A stretch of DNA of 64,000 nt from Pelodictyon luteolum DSM 273 (GTDB lineage Bacteria > Bacteroidota > Chlorobiia > Chlorobiales > Chlorobiaceae). The position numbers were made by a program, and so were the translations under genes. The DNA lies in NCBI RefSeq assembly GCF_000012485.1, contig NC_007512.1, positions 745,001 to 809,000 of the forward strand, given 5' to 3'. Below, piece by piece: positions 5,390 through 31,967 of the stretch. Numbering within the stretch: position 1 is the stretch's first letter; each line of letters begins with the position of its first letter. Under the pieces are notes generated by a model, which did no database searches, had not been told where the DNA came from, and worked only from the letters and a program-made list of their open reading frames with translations.

Positions 5390-5683
5390 TCAATGAATGA
5401 GGAGGTCAAGTTTCTTGCCAAGCGCTTCGGCGTAGTTGACGAGGGTGGAGAGCTTGACGTCTTCGGCATGGTTCTCTATGCGGGATATTGCCGACTTGTG
5501 GGTTTTCAGCCTCTCTGCCACCTCGACCTGTGACATGCCGGTATTGAGTCGGGCCTGTTTGAGCATGACGCCGATGCGGAAATTCCGGTACCCCTCGTCA
5601 TAGCCTTCGGCGAAGCCGGGGCGGGTGGCTTTTTGTTCATCGATGAACGCCTGCAGTTCATCCCTTTTCCTGTCGCTTCTCAT
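5390..5683 (-). CDS. higA: HigA-like XRE antitoxin
   Basis: 97 residues with an XRE helix-turn-helix in the second half ([19 protein letters not shown], then [20 protein letters not shown]). It overlaps the upstream toxin gene by 26 bases, the toxin-first order typical of HigBA and Gp49/HTH modules. The antitoxin would bind the toxin and repress the operon. The N-terminal extension ([18 protein letters not shown]) resembles the toxin-binding arm seen in such antitoxins. Whether the module is active depends on the toxin start, which is unusual. Confidence 0.75.
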
Positions 5684-6044
5684 AATCTTTTTTTCTCTGT
5701 TCGGCCAGCGCGATCTCCTGCGCCGGTGTCTTTTGTGATTTCTTGGAAAAACCGTTGGTCAGGACGACGAGGTTGCCTTCGTGCATGAATCCTAACAGCC
5801 TGACCGCATTGCCTCCATGCGAGGAGCGCACCTCCCAGATGCCTTCTGTGCTCTGCAGTTTCTTGAAGTACTCCTTCGGAACAATCTGAAAATCCCTGAT
5901 AAGTGTCAGCACCCAGGCAACCTTCTGTCTATCCTTGTCCGGGAGGCTGGTCAGGTAATCCTTTACCGGGCACTGACCCGATGGCGTTGTATAAAAATGA
6001 TTGAGCGCATGGCCAAAGTTAACATCTATATCAACTCTCTGCAA
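5658..6044 (-). CDS. higB: HigB/RelE-superfamily toxin (phage Gp49-like)
   Basis: The family body is clear: [58 protein letters not shown], then [20 protein letters not shown] and a basic tail. Such toxins are ribosome-dependent mRNA interferases. In this frame there is no ATG upstream of the domain; the best candidate is a TTG at 6042-6044, giving 128 residues with ~16 extra N-terminal residues and no good ribosome binding site. The native start may have been lost, which would silence the toxin. It lies directly before and overlaps the antitoxin gene. Confidence 0.65.
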
Positions 6045-6568: not shown

Positions 6569-6833
6569 TCAGAACGTATGGCGGAACCCGGCCAGGATAT
6601 TGTGGCTCCCGATATTCAGCTCAATGCCCGGCTGTATCTCGATGTCGGTTGTGGCGAAATACCGGTACCCGATATCGATGGTGACATTGTCGCTGACGGG
6701 GATGCCGATTCCGGCACCGAGCTGGTAGGCGAATGCCGAGTTGTTTTTGTCCAGTTCATAACCGGGCTCGGAATAGTTGACGCCCACGTTGGCATATCCA
6801 ATGCCGAGCGTCACATATGGCAGCACGTTTTCC
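6569..6833 (-). CDS. Outer-membrane beta-barrel protein, exon 2 (C-terminal half)
   Basis: Encodes the last 88 residues of a small opacity/OmpW-like beta-barrel protein: ENVLPYVTLGIGYANVGVNY, AYQLGAGIGIPVSDNVTID, GYRYFATTDIEI, and a terminal GFRHTF that ends in the C-terminal phenylalanine used for outer-membrane assembly. The exon begins exactly after the predicted 3' end of the group II intron at 6834. Joined to exon 1 (8996-9351), it gives one frame of 207 codons including the stop. A start inside this piece is unlikely, so expression of the intact protein depends on splicing. Confidence 0.7.
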
Positions 6834-6877
6834 ATAATCGGGTAACAGCGGCGCATTACTGCGCCACCGTCCCCTAA

Positions 6878-6911
6878 GAACCGTGCGTGCGACTTTCACC
6901 GCACACGGCTC
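6878..6911 (-). ncRNA. Group II intron domain V (catalytic hairpin)
   Basis: A 34-nucleotide hairpin on the minus strand begins GAGCCGTGTGCGG, has a GAAA apical loop and ends CGCACGGTTC; this is the most conserved ribozyme domain, containing the catalytic triad region. The reverse-transcriptase stop codon TGA overlaps its first bases, as in many compact bacterial introns. Domain VI follows directly downstream and ends at 6834. Confidence 0.9.
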
Positions 6912-8397
6912 AAGCCTCGAATAAGGCGCCGTAAGGCACCCGGCAACTCAATGGTGTCGCTTTCCACATCTGTGTTCTACGGGCGCTGAAGTACTCCCTC
7001 CACACTGGATCGTGCGGGTTTGCCTTCGTTCTGATTTTGACGTGTCGCTGGATTGGCATGCTGGCTTCCAGAAAGAGCCGTCGTTCTTTCTTTCGGTCCG
7101 CCTCTTCGGCGACGAACACCCATTTCCTGCCTCCTCTGGCATGAAAGTATTTGTCCATGATCCATCGAAGGCCTTTATTTGGGTGTCGTCGTTTCGCCCA
7201 TTTCCAGAGCATTGACCAGACCTCGTGGTCGTTGCGAGCGAAGACGTCTTTGGCGACACTGTGCCGGTGGTAGTTCGCCCATCCCCGCAGGACGGGGTTG
7301 AGGAGACCGATGAGATCCACCTGCTTGATCGTCTTTTTCGCCTTGATGATTCCCCGCACCTTGGTGAGGTGGGCCTTGATGTTCGCTTTCGAGGGCTTGA
7401 TAAGTAGCTTGCCGTCGTACTTGCGCATGTTCCAGCCGAGGAAATCAAATCCTTCCGTAATGTGCGTTACCCTGGTCTTTTCCTCTGAGAGCCAGAGCCC
7501 TCGTTTTTTAAGGAAGTCGACCACTACCGGCATGATCTCATGTTCCAGCCACTCTTTCGAGTTTCCAGTGATGATGAAGTCGTCAGCGTAGCGCACCATA
7601 TGCATTTTCAGTCCTCGTCTTCGCGCTTGCGGAAATGCTGTTGCAAGCGCTTGCTCGAGGCCGTCAAGGCTCATGTTTGCCAGTCCCGGACTGATGATGC
7701 CGCCTTGCGGCGTGCCCGAGGCTGTGGGAAAGAGCTCGTTGTTGAACACGAAGCCTGCCTTCAGCCATTTGCGGAGGATCGGCGTATCCATGGGGATGTT
7801 GTCGACCAGCCATTGGTGGCTGATAGCATCGAAGCACCCGGCAATATCGGCCTCAAGTATCCATTGTGCGGAATCGCGTCTTGCGAGGCAGATGAAACAC
7901 TGTTCTGCCACGTCGGCTGTTGACCGCCATGGTCGGAACCCGTACGAGTTGCCGTCCGCGGTGGTTTCCGCTACAGGCTCCAGTGCAAGCCAGTAGAGCG
8001 CTTGCATGGCCCTGTCTTTCATGGTTGGGATGCCGAGAGGTCGTTGCTTACCGTTCTTCTTCGGAATGTAGGTCCTTCGAAGGGGAAGGGGCTTGTAGCC
8101 TCTTCGTCTCAGCGATGCTGCGGCATTGGCCTTTGCTTTTGATGTTTTCCAGACGTCTCCGTCGACTCCCGGGGTGTTTTTCCCCCGGTTTTCCGTCACC
8201 CGTTTGACGGCAAGAACCTTGCCGCTGTGCGAGTGGGTCAGCAGCCACTGCAAGGCTTTCACCCTGCCATGACGGCCTTCCTTTGTTGCCTTTGCAATAC
8301 GTGCCTGAAGCCTCCTGACCTGTCGCTTGATCCGGGACCAGTTGATCCCTTGCCAGTCGAGGCCGGAAGGTGCACACACAGGGTTATCCGTGTTCAT
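6910..8397 (-). CDS. ltrA: Group II intron reverse transcriptase/maturase
   Basis: 495 residues. Reverse-transcriptase motifs are intact: an N-terminal RT0-like part, GYKPLPLRRTYIPKKNGKQR (palm start), SYGFRPWRS, then the catalytic YADDFIITG near residue 270, and a maturase (X) domain with GFDFLGWNMRK and LNPVLRGWANYHR. It helps fold the intron RNA for splicing and copies it for retrohoming. The C-terminus stops shortly after PHDPVWREYFSARRTQMWK. The CxxC/HNH endonuclease segment that follows this phrase in many relatives is absent, so the protein should lack second-strand cleavage activity. The ORF ends in domain V. Confidence 0.92.
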   Translation of the reverse strand: MNTDNPVCAPSGLDWQGINWSRIKRQVRRLQARIAKATKEGRHGRVKALQWLLTHSHSGKVLAVKRVTENRGKNTPGVDGDVWKTSKAKANAAASLRRRGYKPLPLRRTYIPKKNGKQRPLGIPTMKDRAMQALYWLALEPVAETTADGNSYGFRPWRSTADVAEQCFICLARRDSAQWILEADIAGCFDAISHQWLVDNIPMDTPILRKWLKAGFVFNNELFPTASGTPQGGIISPGLANMSLDGLEQALATAFPQARRRGLKMHMVRYADDFIITGNSKEWLEHEIMPVVVDFLKKRGLWLSEEKTRVTHITEGFDFLGWNMRKYDGKLLIKPSKANIKAHLTKVRGIIKAKKTIKQVDLIGLLNPVLRGWANYHRHSVAKDVFARNDHEVWSMLWKWAKRRHPNKGLRWIMDKYFHARGGRKWVFVAEEADRKKERRLFLEASMPIQRHVKIRTKANPHDPVWREYFSARRTQMWKATPLSCRVPYGALFEA

Positions 8398-8995
8398 TTG
8401 CGTTCCTTCTGCATGGGAGGTTCTTCAAGTTATCTTGCAAATCGAGACCATGAGGACGTCAGCCCGTTTTCACGTGGGGTGATGTTGCAACCCCTATCCG
8501 CCCGATTACAGGACGGCGTTCGCTTCTTCCCCACTCTCATACCCGCACTTTCATGGTCCTTCCTTACAGTCGGATTGCCCGGCATGGCCGGGCGGAAGTA
8601 CGGGGTTTCCGTGTTCCGCGTATAGAACATGCGGATGGGTTAGGTTCCGTCTCTCCACCGGCGGGATTTGTTGGCCGTGTGTGCTCCACATGGAAGGGAG
8701 CATACCTGCCCGCGTACCTTTTGGTCCAAGCGTTGTCAGTGAGCTTTCGCTTGCTTATTATAACGATGGTTGTGACGATTCACCTGCGTTAACCATACCA
8801 TCCTCCCCCTTGCCCCTCTCCGCCTGCTACTGGCAGATTCAGCTTCTCCTCACGGGTCGGCCTACGGTTTCCCGCGGGTACGTTTCCGGTAGCTTCACAC
8901 AGGGCGATTGCTCATCCTGCATGTGCCGGTGGGGGCAGTTGACGGCACAACTGGTTCTGCAAAGAACAGTTCAAATACGCGACTTCACGTCGCAC

Positions 8996-9351
8996 TCCAT
9001 GTCATAATAGCCGTTGTACATGACCGAGAGAATATCCCCATCGCCTTTGATGACGCCGTTGGCTTCGATAGATCCGATTTTATCCACATCGTTTGCCTGA
9101 TAGCCTGCGGCAAGTTCAAGTCTGAAGTCGTTTTTCCTGAGGCCGTATGCAACATTGATTGCGTAGCCCGGTTCATACTTGACCGCATCCTGGAGGGTGT
9201 ATGAGAAGCCGGAGAGGGTTCCCGACAGGTCGGAGTCTCCCATCATGGTCATTCCGCCGGAGATGCTGAGATACGAATCGGTCGAGGCCTCTGCCGGAGA
9301 GGGTGCTGCACAGATGGCGGCCAGAAGAAACGCGAGTACTGATTTTTTCAT
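8996..9351 (-). CDS. Outer-membrane beta-barrel protein, exon 1 (N-terminal half)
   Basis: ATG at 9349-9351 starts a signal peptide (MKKSVLAFLLAAICAAPSPA, with likely cleavage after AEA), followed by beta-strand-like segments (YLSISGGMTMMGDSDL, AVKYEPGYAINVAYGLRK, FRLELAAGYQANDV). The exon stops after ATG-GA at 8996, where the group II intron begins with GTGCG. Without splicing the frame reads only a few more residues (CDVKSRI) to a TGA. Spliced to exon 2, the product is 206 residues, a normal size for OmpA-like or OmpW-like 8-strand barrels. It is adjacent to the Tad operon on the same strand but 115 bases beyond its last gene. Confidence 0.7.
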
Positions 9352-9466: not shown

Positions 9467-10207
9467 TCAGAGTGTTCCGGATGCATACGTTCCGAGAATG
9501 CTCCATCCCAGCGCCGCAATTACAATTGCGGGACCGAAGGGCCATTCGGCTTCCGGACTGAAGTTTTTGAACTGGCGCCACACCGCGTACCAGAGTACGG
9601 TGATGATGCCGGAGGCAATCACGATGTAGAGTACACCCTGCATGCCCCACCATGCGGCCAGAGCCGCAAGCAGCTTAAGGTCTCCGCCCCCCATGCCCCT
9701 AACGCCCTTGACTTGTTGGTACACCCACCCGAGCCCGCCGAGCATTACAAGCATTATGGTAGCGGATGCTGCACTGGCGATAAGGCTCTGATGGGTAAGC
9801 CCCGCGTAACTGGCGCCAAGCCCTGCCAGCCCCAGCGGCAGGACCACCCGGTCCGGAAGCATGGTGGTGTCCCAGTCCGCGAGGGCGAGGAGCAGCAGCG
9901 TGCTTGCAAGGCATGCCAAGATCAGCGCACCCCAGATGGCCTCCCCGGTGGCGGTGTTTGCAGCATAGATCCAGATGCCTGCGTTGAGGGCCGGTACCCA
10001 CAGCCGCCGGCCGGCCGGAACGGGTAGCTTGAGCCCGCCGCCCGGGCCCTGCCATTCATCGATGGGAGCCTCGGCCTCCTCGAGCACCTGCTCGGGAATG
10101 ATGCGGGCCAGGGTCACCAGCCGGTCACCTACCCATGCACCACCGAGCAGCCACGGCAGGTATGCCGAGTATGACGGGAGGGATTGCAGGATGTCGTTGG
10201 TGTTCAT
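9467..10207 (-). CDS. tadV: Type IV prepilin peptidase (A24 family), CpaA/TadV-like
   Basis: 246 residues, strongly hydrophobic with about six membrane segments. The two catalytic aspartates of the aspartyl prepilin peptidases are visible: LADWDTTMLPDRVVLPLG (first Asp near residue 110) and the GxGD-type GVRGMGGGDLKLL (near residue 170). It would remove the leader of the Flp prepilin and of the TadE/TadG pseudopilins at the inner membrane. It is the last gene of the Tad operon, 7 bases after tadC. The N-terminal ~80 residues are longer than in minimal CpaA proteins and lack the zinc-binding cysteines of PilD-type methylating enzymes. Confidence 0.85.
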   Translation of the reverse strand: MNTNDILQSLPSYSAYLPWLLGGAWVGDRLVTLARIIPEQVLEEAEAPIDEWQGPGGGLKLPVPAGRRLWVPALNAGIWIYAANTATGEAIWGALILACLASTLLLLALADWDTTMLPDRVVLPLGLAGLGASYAGLTHQSLIASAASATIMLVMLGGLGWVYQQVKGVRGMGGGDLKLLAALAAWWGMQGVLYIVIASGIITVLWYAVWRQFKNFSPEAEWPFGPAIVIAALGWSILGTYASGTL

Positions 10208-10214
10208 GGTTGGC

Positions 10215-11156
10215 TTACTTTGAGAAAACTTCCATTATCTGTATGATGGCAGGTCCCAACAGCACCATCAGGAGCGTGGGGAAAATGAACAGAACGAGCG
10301 GAATGGTCATTTTGACCGGAATCTTTGCCGCCATCTCTTCAGCACGCTGGGTACGGCGTGAACGCAGCATGTCGGACTGCACCCGGAGCGACTCAGCCAT
10401 GCCGGTGCCGAATTTGTCGGCCTGCACGAACATGGTGACGAGGTCGTTCATGTCTTTAAGATTCGTGCGGAGCGCCAGATTGCGCAGGGCTTCGATGCGG
10501 GTTGCTCCGGCTCGTATTTCAAGGACCGAGAGGTAAAACTCCTGGGCCAGATCGGGGTTGCCGCGGGCCATTTCCCGGGATATGCGGGCAATGGCCGAAT
10601 CGATGCCCATGCCTGACTCGGTGCAGACGACCATGAGATCAATCATGTCCGGCAGGCTGTTGCGCATGCGTTCATGGCGCTGTTGGGTAATGAAGCGCAG
10701 CGCAAGTTCGGGGATGTAGTAGCCGGCCGCGGCTGTAGAGAGCACCAGCAGCAGGGACTGGGTGAGGGGGACGCCGGGCCGGAAGAAATACAGAAACAGC
10801 CCGAGTGCCGCCGGAAGCACCACGGTGAGGAGGGTTTTTACGGCAAAGTAGTAGCGGGGCGCATTTTTGCTGCGGATGCCGGCCTGCAGGAACTTGAGCT
10901 GGACTGCGGAGCTCTGCCACCCTTCTTCCGGGAGCGAAAGCCTGGAGAGGATGTTGATGACGTTTCCCACTGTTGCGGAATTGGCCGCCTTGGTCCCGGC
11001 CGATACGGCAGGGGTCCGGGCCGTGTCCTTGCCGGCAATTCCGCTGATGCGCTTGTTAAGGGCGTAGGCGGCTGCCCAGTCGTACAGGACGTAGACAAGG
11101 GCTACTGCGGCGGCTCCCGAGAGCACGATGGCAAGCAGTTCCAGAATGGTTTGCAT
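10215..11156 (-). CDS. tadC: Tad pilus inner-membrane platform protein TadC
   Basis: 313 residues of the T2SSF/GspF family. N-terminal membrane segment (ILLELLAIVLSGAAAVALVY-like hydrophobic start), two central membrane helices, then the cytoplasmic helical domain LPDMIDLMVVCTESGMGIDS and RTNLKDMNDLVTMFVQADKF, then IPVKMTIPLVLFIFPTLLMV at the end. TadB and TadC form the inner-membrane base through which the TadA ATPase powers Flp pilus assembly. It starts 18 bases after tadB. Confidence 0.9.
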   Translation of the reverse strand: MQTILELLAIVLSGAAAVALVYVLYDWAAAYALNKRISGIAGKDTARTPAVSAGTKAANSATVGNVINILSRLSLPEEGWQSSAVQLKFLQAGIRSKNAPRYYFAVKTLLTVVLPAALGLFLYFFRPGVPLTQSLLLVLSTAAAGYYIPELALRFITQQRHERMRNSLPDMIDLMVVCTESGMGIDSAIARISREMARGNPDLAQEFYLSVLEIRAGATRIEALRNLALRTNLKDMNDLVTMFVQADKFGTGMAESLRVQSDMLRSRRTQRAEEMAAKIPVKMTIPLVLFIFPTLLMVLLGPAIIQIMEVFSK

Positions 11157-11174
11157 GGTGGTGGTGTCTAAGGG

Positions 11175-12143
11175 TTAAACCTTGATCTGGACGATGCGTT
11201 TGAGCACCACGAATCCTACGGACATGAGCCCTGCGCCGATGAGCATGAGATTGTTGCCCCGGGACGTGGTCCAGAGCAGCGAGATATATTCAGGGTTGAT
11301 GAGCGAGAGGACCATCATGAGCACAAACGGCATGCTTCCGAGTACCCAGCCCGATGCCCGCCCTTCGGATGAAAGGGTGCGGATCTTTCCGCGCAGCTTG
11401 ATGCGGTGCCGTATCGTTCTGGCCAGCCCGTCGAACAGCTCGGTGAGGTTTCCTCCGGTCTCATGCTGGATCGTGAGCGAGATGACGAAGAAGTTGAGAT
11501 CGGTGCTCTGCATCCGCTCGGCGAGACGGCCGATGGCCTCTTTGAAGGGAATGCCGAAACCGATTTCATCAAAGACAATCTTGAACTCGTAGCCTATCGG
11601 TTCCCCGAACTCCTGGCCAACCATGCCCATGGCCGGAGCGAGGCTGTGGCCTGCACGCAGTGCGCGTGAGATATGGTCAAGCGCTTCGGGCAGCTTGTCC
11701 TCGAAAGCCCGGAGGCGTCGGTCGGCCAGTTGCATCAGCCATAGGACCGGCATGCCGGCGACGGCTGCGGCAACCACCAGCGTGAGCAGGGGGTGGGTAT
11801 GGCGGAGAAGGCCCAACGCCATCACCCCCGTAAACAGGGTGCTCATGAGGATCATGATGCGACGGGTAGTGAGAGGACCATGAGCTCGCAGTACAAGGTT
11901 TTCAAGCTGAACGTATGCTTTGAAGCGCCCACGCAGCCATTTTTCAATTGCGCTGTCTTTCTGGGCATTCTGCATGCCGCCGCTCCGTTTTCCATCGCTG
12001 TGAACAGCGTCTCGGACAGTCTGCAGGCGCTGCTTTTTCGTCTTGCTGCCGGCGCTTAAGTACCGGGCCCATGCCCAGTAGAGCAGGAGCGTCAGGAGCA
12101 GTGCGGCCTCGAATGCAAGGAAGGGGATCAGGTACTGTGCCAT
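11175..12143 (-). CDS. tadB: Tad pilus inner-membrane platform protein TadB
   Basis: 322 residues, GspF-family. It has an N-terminal membrane helix, a basic linker, a central pair of helices (LVVAAAVAGMPVLWLMQLAD), and the conserved LPEALDHISRALRAGHSLAP and TDLNFFVISLTIQHETGGNL signatures of TadB, with a C-terminal membrane helix. Partner of TadC in the inner-membrane platform. It lies 11 bases after the ATPase gene in the same operon, which supports the assignment over generic type II secretion. Confidence 0.92.
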   Translation of the reverse strand: MAQYLIPFLAFEAALLLTLLLYWAWARYLSAGSKTKKQRLQTVRDAVHSDGKRSGGMQNAQKDSAIEKWLRGRFKAYVQLENLVLRAHGPLTTRRIMILMSTLFTGVMALGLLRHTHPLLTLVVAAAVAGMPVLWLMQLADRRLRAFEDKLPEALDHISRALRAGHSLAPAMGMVGQEFGEPIGYEFKIVFDEIGFGIPFKEAIGRLAERMQSTDLNFFVISLTIQHETGGNLTELFDGLARTIRHRIKLRGKIRTLSSEGRASGWVLGSMPFVLMMVLSLINPEYISLLWTTSRGNNLMLIGAGLMSVGFVVLKRIVQIKV

Positions 12144-12154
12144 GATGAGTGGGG

Positions 12155-13594
12155 TTAATCGTTGGCGTCAGGATCGAAGAGTCCCTCGCTGAGCTGGATG
12201 CCGTAGGTGAGTATCTTCTCGTACACTTTGGGGCGCACACCCGTTGCCCTGAAGAGGCCTTCCACCGTTCCGTCCGGTTTCGTGCCGGTGCGTGTGTAGC
12301 TGAAGATTTCCTGGGTAGTGATCATTTCACCCTCCATGCCGGTGATTTCCTGGATGCTCGTGATCTTGCGGCTGCCGTCACTCTGCCGTGAGATCTGGAT
12401 GATGAAGTGGATCGACGAGATGATGAGCTGGCGCAGCGCTTTTGTCGGCAGGCTGATGCCGGCCATTCCTACCAGATTTTCGAGGCGGCCGAGCGCATCC
12501 CGGGAGCTGTTGGCATGAATGGTGGTAAGGGAGCCGTCATGGCCGGTGTTCATGGCCTGCAGCATATCGATCACCTCGCTGCTCCGGACCTCGCCGAGCA
12601 CGATGCGGTCAGGCCGCATGCGCAGCGTGTTTTTCACAAGGGCGCGCATGGTGATTTCACCTTTGCCTTCGATGTTCGGCGGGCGGGTTTCCAGATGAAT
12701 GACGTGGTCGTGCTGGAACTGCAGCTCGGCAGTGTCTTCAATGGTGACGATGCGTTCATCGGCCGGGATATAGCCCGAGAGGATGTTGAGCAGCGTGGTC
12801 TTGCCCGAACCGGTGCCACCTGAAATGATGATGTTGCACTTGACCTTGACGAGTGCCGCGAGTAGTTCTGCAACGGCAGGCGTGAGGGTCTCTTTTTGCA
12901 CGATGTCATCCATCTGCAGCGGCACCACCGAAAAGCGCCGGATGGTGAGGATCGGGCCGTCGAGAGCGAGCGGCGGAATGATGGCGTTGACGCGCGATCC
13001 GTCGGGGAGGCGGGCATCGACCATAGGGCTGGATTCATCGATGCGTCGTCCCACACGGGAGACGATCTTGTCGATGATCTTCATGAGGTGCGCGTCGTCG
13101 TTGAAGCGCACATCGGTCAGTTCGATCTTCCCCTTCTTTTCGATATAGACATTATGATAGCCGTTGACCATGATTTCAGAAATGGCCGGGTCGGCAAGGA
13201 GGGGCTCCAAGGGGCCGAGACCCATGATCTCGTTTTTGAGGTCGGCAATCAGTCGTGTTCGCTCCTGATCGTTCAGGGGAATGGCTTCTTCTTCGATGAG
13301 TTCCAGAAGGAGTGTTCCGAGCTGTGTGCGCAGCTGCTCGGGGCTCAGGCTCTCGATGGAGTTGAGGTCGATTCTGGTAAGGAGCTTCTGGTGCAGCTTC
13401 CTTTTGGTCGCATAAAAGTCCAGTCCCGGGGCGGCTTTGGCTTTTGCCGCCGGTGCGGGTGCCGGTGAAGTCTTCTGCTGGGCACCGGTTGGATTTGGCG
13501 GTGCCTCAACGGCCGGAACCGCCGGTGTTGAGGGAGCCACAACCCGTTTCGAGGTGAGACTCCAGCGGGCTACCTGATCTTTAAGCGTTGCCAT
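12155..13594 (-). CDS. cpaF: Tad pilus assembly ATPase CpaF/TadA
   Basis: 479 residues of the secretion ATPase (GspE/VirB11-like) family. A proline/alanine-rich N-terminal linker (~residues 20-55) precedes the N-terminal domain ([20 protein letters not shown]) and the ATPase core: Walker [10 protein letters not shown], Asp box [20 protein letters not shown] (Walker B region) and the His box [13 protein letters not shown]. It energises Flp pilin polymerisation at the cytoplasmic face. The gene start overlaps the cpaE end by 25 bases, implying translational coupling. Confidence 0.95.
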
Positions 13595-31693: not shown

Positions 31694-31787
31694 GTTTGCA
31701 ATGAGATTATGGTTAAACGAACAACAGGAACAACAGAAAAATCGGTACGGGAGGTTTTTCGGACGGGCGGACAGAGATGGGCCGACT

Positions 31788-31861
31788 GGACACGGAAAAC
31801 CTTTCCGGCAGGTCACTTGGAAACTGAATTCCAGAGGGAGTGAGCCTGCGGCACCGTGTCC
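31788..31861 (-). ncRNA. SAM-Chlorobi type leader RNA (candidate SAM riboswitch)
   Basis: In the metK 5' leader, on the minus strand, GGACACGG (31854-31861) pairs with CCGTGTCC (31788-31795) to close a structured element. Inside it, GCAGG-C-TCAC pairs with GTGACCTGC, leaving one bulged C, and TGGAA pairs with TTCCA. From the literature, the SAM-Chlorobi motif occurs only in Chlorobi and always upstream of metK-ahcY operons, and it is proposed to bind SAM. Position, phylum and three nested helices fit. I matched this by memory of the motif's context rather than by a covariance model, and a downstream expression platform was not identified. Confidence 0.6.
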
Positions 31862-31967
31862 ATAGGTAATGGGGATGCCTTTAGATAAAACAGTTTTAAA
31901 TGTAAGCATTCAGGGCGATGTATGCAAAATTCTCTTTTCCGTGCATCGCCCCGTTCGCCGGAGAGAC

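Follow-up and report, generated by a model that had tools for sequence, protein, structure and literature searches.

A minus-strand group II intron splits an outer-membrane beta-barrel gene in the window, i.e. the whole stretch of 64,000 nucleotides of Pelodictyon luteolum DSM 273 that was analysed, with its 5′ end at 8995 (GUGCGACG). We assign a probability of roughly 0.8 to the reading that this is a recently arrived group IIB-type intron of an IS3-homing lineage, whose maturase-assisted excision would restore the 208-codon frame of the barrel gene. The gene and the intron comprise the following elements:

8996 to 9351, minus strand: 5′ exon, the initial 356 bases of the barrel gene, with a signal-peptide-like N-terminus, in frame with the 3′ exon
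6837 to 8995, minus strand: group II intron, 2159 nt, GUGCG...CCCGAU, from Rfam domain 1 and domain 5-6 matches, with ends set from copies at other sites
8812 to 8954, minus strand: part of intron domain 1 (Rfam RF02012, 99.5 bits, E 1.2e-19)
6910 to 8397, minus strand: reverse transcriptase/maturase, 495 aa (Pfam RVT_N, RVT_1, GIIM)
6837 to 6913, minus strand: intron domains 5 and 6, with a bulged A at 6843 (Rfam RF00029, 64.1 bits)
6569 to 6836, minus strand: 3′ exon, the final 268 bases of the barrel gene, stop codon included, at the corrected boundary, with an OMP_b-brl match

The original prediction of a group II intron starting at 8995 within an outer-membrane gene was confirmed by the Rfam matches to domain 1 (D1) and to domains 5 and 6 (D5-D6), together with the reverse transcriptase (RT)/maturase ORF. 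The comparison with group II models and the folding proposed along with it gave a concordant picture: RF02012 and RF00029 both match, and the D5-D6 region folds at -46.7 kcal/mol (z -6.6), with a single bulged A in D6. On this fold the bulged A, 7 nt from the 6837 end, is the putative branch point. Both terminal motifs are present, GUGYG at the 5′ end (GUGCG at 8995) and AY at the 3′ end (GAU to 6837). A YADD motif is visible in the RT translation, and no HNH or other endonuclease family was found by Pfam in the intron ORF. The RT stop codon falls in the first bases of D5 (6910-6913), an overlap seen also in several other introns of the wider group; in the Chlorobi intron clade the ORF continues straight into D5 without an HNH-like C-terminus, and HNH-like C-termini are present in several relatives from other phyla.

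The 3′ end of the intron had been placed at 6834, which is wrong by three bases, or one codon, the true end being 6837. In most full copies at other sites BLAST homology stops at intron position 2158 or 2159 (CCCGA or CCCGAY), and the bases 3′ of CCCGAY vary among insertion sites; two copies align on to 2162, where the next exon bases, CAT or TAT, match by chance. One tandem copy has CCCGAC immediately before the GTGCG of the next intron, and the Rfam D5-D6 match terminates at 6837. A few relatives carry variant 3′ ends, e.g. CCCGAG or CCCTAC. The codon gained by the correction (YYDMDMENV) improves the score of the joined protein against 16 of 19 uninterrupted homologues, with two ties and one worse, and raises its Pfam score from 67.4 to 69.4 bits. 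An end at 6834, giving 207 codons, would preserve the frame and is compatible with the exon sequences, but it is scarcely credible given that the copy comparison, the tandem junction, the Rfam end, the D6 geometry and the homologue scores all favour 6837. Both boundaries keep the frame because the three bases form one codon, so that the error was undetectable by frame restoration alone. What had been claimed about the frame is thus correct in that excision restores it, and a frameshift from precise ends, looked for with 8995 and 6837, did not appear; the count of 207 codons is not, since 356 + 268 nt make 208 codons with the stop (207 aa). The predicted exon junction after excision at 6837 is ...TATTATGACATGGA/TATGGAAAACGTG...

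Almost all of the joined product is covered by Pfam OMP_b-brl (E about 1e-18), which also matches the half encoded by the 3′ exon alone. The product aligns end to end with uninterrupted homologues, the flanking motifs being neither gapped nor broken. The barrel gene family occurs in all 61 of the 61 sampled genomes of the bacterial family, and two uninterrupted paralogues, 38% and 41% identical, are present in the same genome. An intronless orthologous barrel locus was sought and none was found; the closest homologue is 49% identical. A pilus or secretion cluster at 9467-13594, upstream of the barrel gene and on its strand, encodes a prepilin peptidase, two proteins of the T2SSF family and a T2SSE ATPase. 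Barrel homologues elsewhere showed no such prepilin peptidase beside them in the 1.5-kb flanks searched. Elsewhere in the window, a Gp49-like (HigB-type) protein lies beside a helix-turn-helix protein at 5390-6044 on the minus strand, a pair that looks like a toxin-antitoxin system, and a SAM-Chlorobi RNA (Rfam RF01724, 83.9 bits) lies at 31786-31880 on the minus strand.

Recognition of the exons was analysed in an alignment of 45 related introns, mostly from GTDB genomes, which defines the following pairing elements:

8688 to 8694, minus strand: EBS1 (UCCAUGU), exact complement of exon -7 to -1, with covariation in 45 introns
8996 to 9002, minus strand: IBS1 (ACATGGA), 7 of 7 Watson-Crick pairs with EBS1
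8756 to 8761, minus strand: EBS2 (AUAAUA), exact complement of IBS2, with covariation in 45 introns
9004 to 9009, minus strand: IBS2 (TATTAT), 6 of 6 pairs with EBS2
8653, minus strand: EBS3 (G), covarying with exon +1
6836, minus strand: IBS3 (T), forming only a G-U wobble with EBS3

The perfect pairing of EBS1 and EBS2 with the 5′ exon, already proposed, holds, every base of ACATGGA and TATTAT finding its complement. In the alignment the EBS1 columns are the best pairing partners of each exon position from -1 to -6, and the EBS2 columns those of -9 to -13. Exon +1 and intron position 343 form Watson-Crick pairs in 39 of the 45 introns and G-U pairs in two more, against 21 of 45 for the next-best column, counts that include related introns and hence non-independent events. 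This covariation identifies EBS3 as the G at 8653, and since exon +1 of the barrel gene is a T, the EBS3-IBS3 contact is only a wobble here. A one-column offset of this clade relative to the other introns at EBS1/EBS2 was judged to be an alignment effect in variable loops.

The same alignment bears on the class of the intron. Among the 45 introns exon +1 covaries with EBS3 in domain 1, and no better with any column beside EBS1, as expected for group IIB, in which EBS3 and not the base next to EBS1 reads exon +1. Group IIC introns insert behind terminator-like hairpins and have scant EBS2 pairing; an assignment to this group does not fit, as the EBS2 pairing covaries family-wide and the insertion site lies within a reading frame. 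These sequence features are best explained by a mobile intron of group IIB type that encodes its own reverse transcriptase/maturase. No earlier report of it was found in a literature search of partial coverage.

The two closest relatives (90.8% and 92.6% identical) each interrupt a transposase gene of the IS3 family at the motif YYAW, and both have a C at exon +1, matched by the EBS3 G. Joined across the same boundaries, their host genes give transposase frames of 321 and 318 codons, named from recognisable IS3 OrfB sequence. In the tree the barrel intron nests within these two IS3-site relatives (support 0.999 and 1.0). A second copy in the same genome, a single contig of 2,364,842 bases, lies at 2032501; it is identical to the barrel intron over 313 of the 313 nt compared (the 3′ part), and IS3 transposase sequence comes after it, at the position equivalent to that of the relatives. 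A 1756-aa reading frame containing this 313-nt piece was rejected as an artefact of a 5-kb run of N (contig 2027501-2032500), into which the 5′ part of this copy falls, EBS1 and EBS2 included.

The TATTATG shared by the two sites and an EBS3 that matches the IS3 site suggest that the intron probably moved only recently from an IS3 home into the barrel gene. In the reverse order, the intron would have entered the barrel gene first, selection for splicing would have tuned EBS1 and EBS2 to it, and the IS3 copy would be derived. This would account for the fit of EBS1 and EBS2 to the barrel without a wobble where the sister introns pair with their own IS3 sites through wobbles or a mismatch, but it is improbable, since both nearest relatives at the IS3 site bracket the barrel intron in the tree, EBS3 still matches the IS3 site, and the copies of this genome are identical over 313 nt, so that neither is old relative to the other. 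The direction from IS3 to barrel is therefore the one we infer from the sequence comparison.

Introns without an endonuclease, RmInt1 among them, prefer the template of the lagging strand, and replication-strand orientation was examined for this reason; with an origin near base 1 and a turn near 1.2-1.3 Mb by skew, the three insertions disagree and give no clear pattern. The introns found in this genome are one full copy, one partial-sequence copy, one ORF-less relative and one small remnant. The ORF-less relative (794 nt, minus strand, about 1577592-1578385; L047 4593-5386) has recognisable D1 and D5-D6, and G-U wobbles contribute to the pairing of its EBS1 with the 5′ exon at its own site; a maturase would have to act on it in trans, perhaps that of the barrel intron. 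In two Chlorobiaceae MAGs (L050 5785-9472; L051) twintrons were observed, in which a close relative of the barrel intron interrupts the RT gene of a sibling intron, at a conserved EGFDF/LGWN motif and in the same place in both genomes, and at L052 4289-6707 two related introns lie in direct tandem.

Taken together, the close lineage of the barrel intron would home into an IS3-family transposase gene, and this copy would recently have reached the barrel gene from that home because TATTATG-ACATGGA in the barrel resembles the home site. Once transcribed, the intron would bind the 5′ exon through EBS1 and EBS2 and the 3′ exon through EBS3; with help from the maturase, the RNA would cut at 8996/8995 and 6837/6836, and the joined exons would form the 208-codon reading frame. 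Splicing in the cell, like its efficiency, is inferred; in its favour, the barrel copy has kept every RNA domain examined, the maturase frame and both EBS1 and EBS2 intact. The argument that efficient splicing is the price of survival for a coding gene with an intron is not supported here. The 313-nt identity to the second copy makes the insertion probably too recent for exon intactness to be informative, and with uninterrupted paralogues at hand, intact exons are weak evidence for splicing.

It could be that the intron splices poorly or not at all and that the barrel gene is knocked out, yet undecayed. Recent insertion, paralogues that could cover the loss of the barrel and the EBS3 wobble are all in keeping with this, and a group II intron that does splice can still reduce the mRNA of its host gene (PMC6003770); we consider it unlikely, given the intact RNA domains, maturase frame and EBS1/EBS2. 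Very improbable is the idea that the barrel copy has adapted to the site it now occupies and that splicing, or pairing of the excised intron to mRNA, sets the level of the outer-membrane protein; a mobile intron would then be on its way to regulating a host surface gene. On the favoured reading of a recent, excisable insertion, the barrel gene offers a clean view, in nature, of a group II intron shortly after its move out of a transposase home and into a host gene. A likely donor in the same genome and sister species with the IS3-site version make the cost of an off-home insertion directly testable, and likewise the role of the EBS3 contact in splicing.

RmInt1 of Sinorhizobium meliloti homes into an insertion sequence, a likeness to the IS3-homing lineage described here, and Ll.LtrB of Lactococcus lactis belongs to group IIA, in which it differs from the barrel intron. 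RmInt1 is also alike in being a group IIB intron with EBS1/EBS2/EBS3 contacts and a G as EBS3, and in its intron protein without an endonuclease domain (PMC3123198, PMC8914252). In RmInt1 the EBS1-IBS1 pairing is required and sufficient for excision, and a change in IBS3 left splicing unimpaired (PMC3123198). It differs in lineage and host, one copy here being in a host outer-membrane gene. Ll.LtrB similarly interrupts a protein-coding gene, and its effect on the mRNA of that gene has been studied, but its host is a plasmid relaxase gene (PMC6003770). The TeI4/TeI3 introns of Thermosynechococcus elongatus spread by EBS divergence, into other mobile introns and insertion elements; they resemble the introns described here in this divergence, in insertion into mobile elements, in having ORF-less relatives and in their few insertions in genes (PMC2882425). 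About 28 copies are present in T. elongatus, compared with few here. By analogy, the proposed jump from IS3 to the barrel gene would follow the pattern described for the T. elongatus introns (PMC2882425), and the barrel-gene intron is a tidy but unexceptional instance of an element that is well known.
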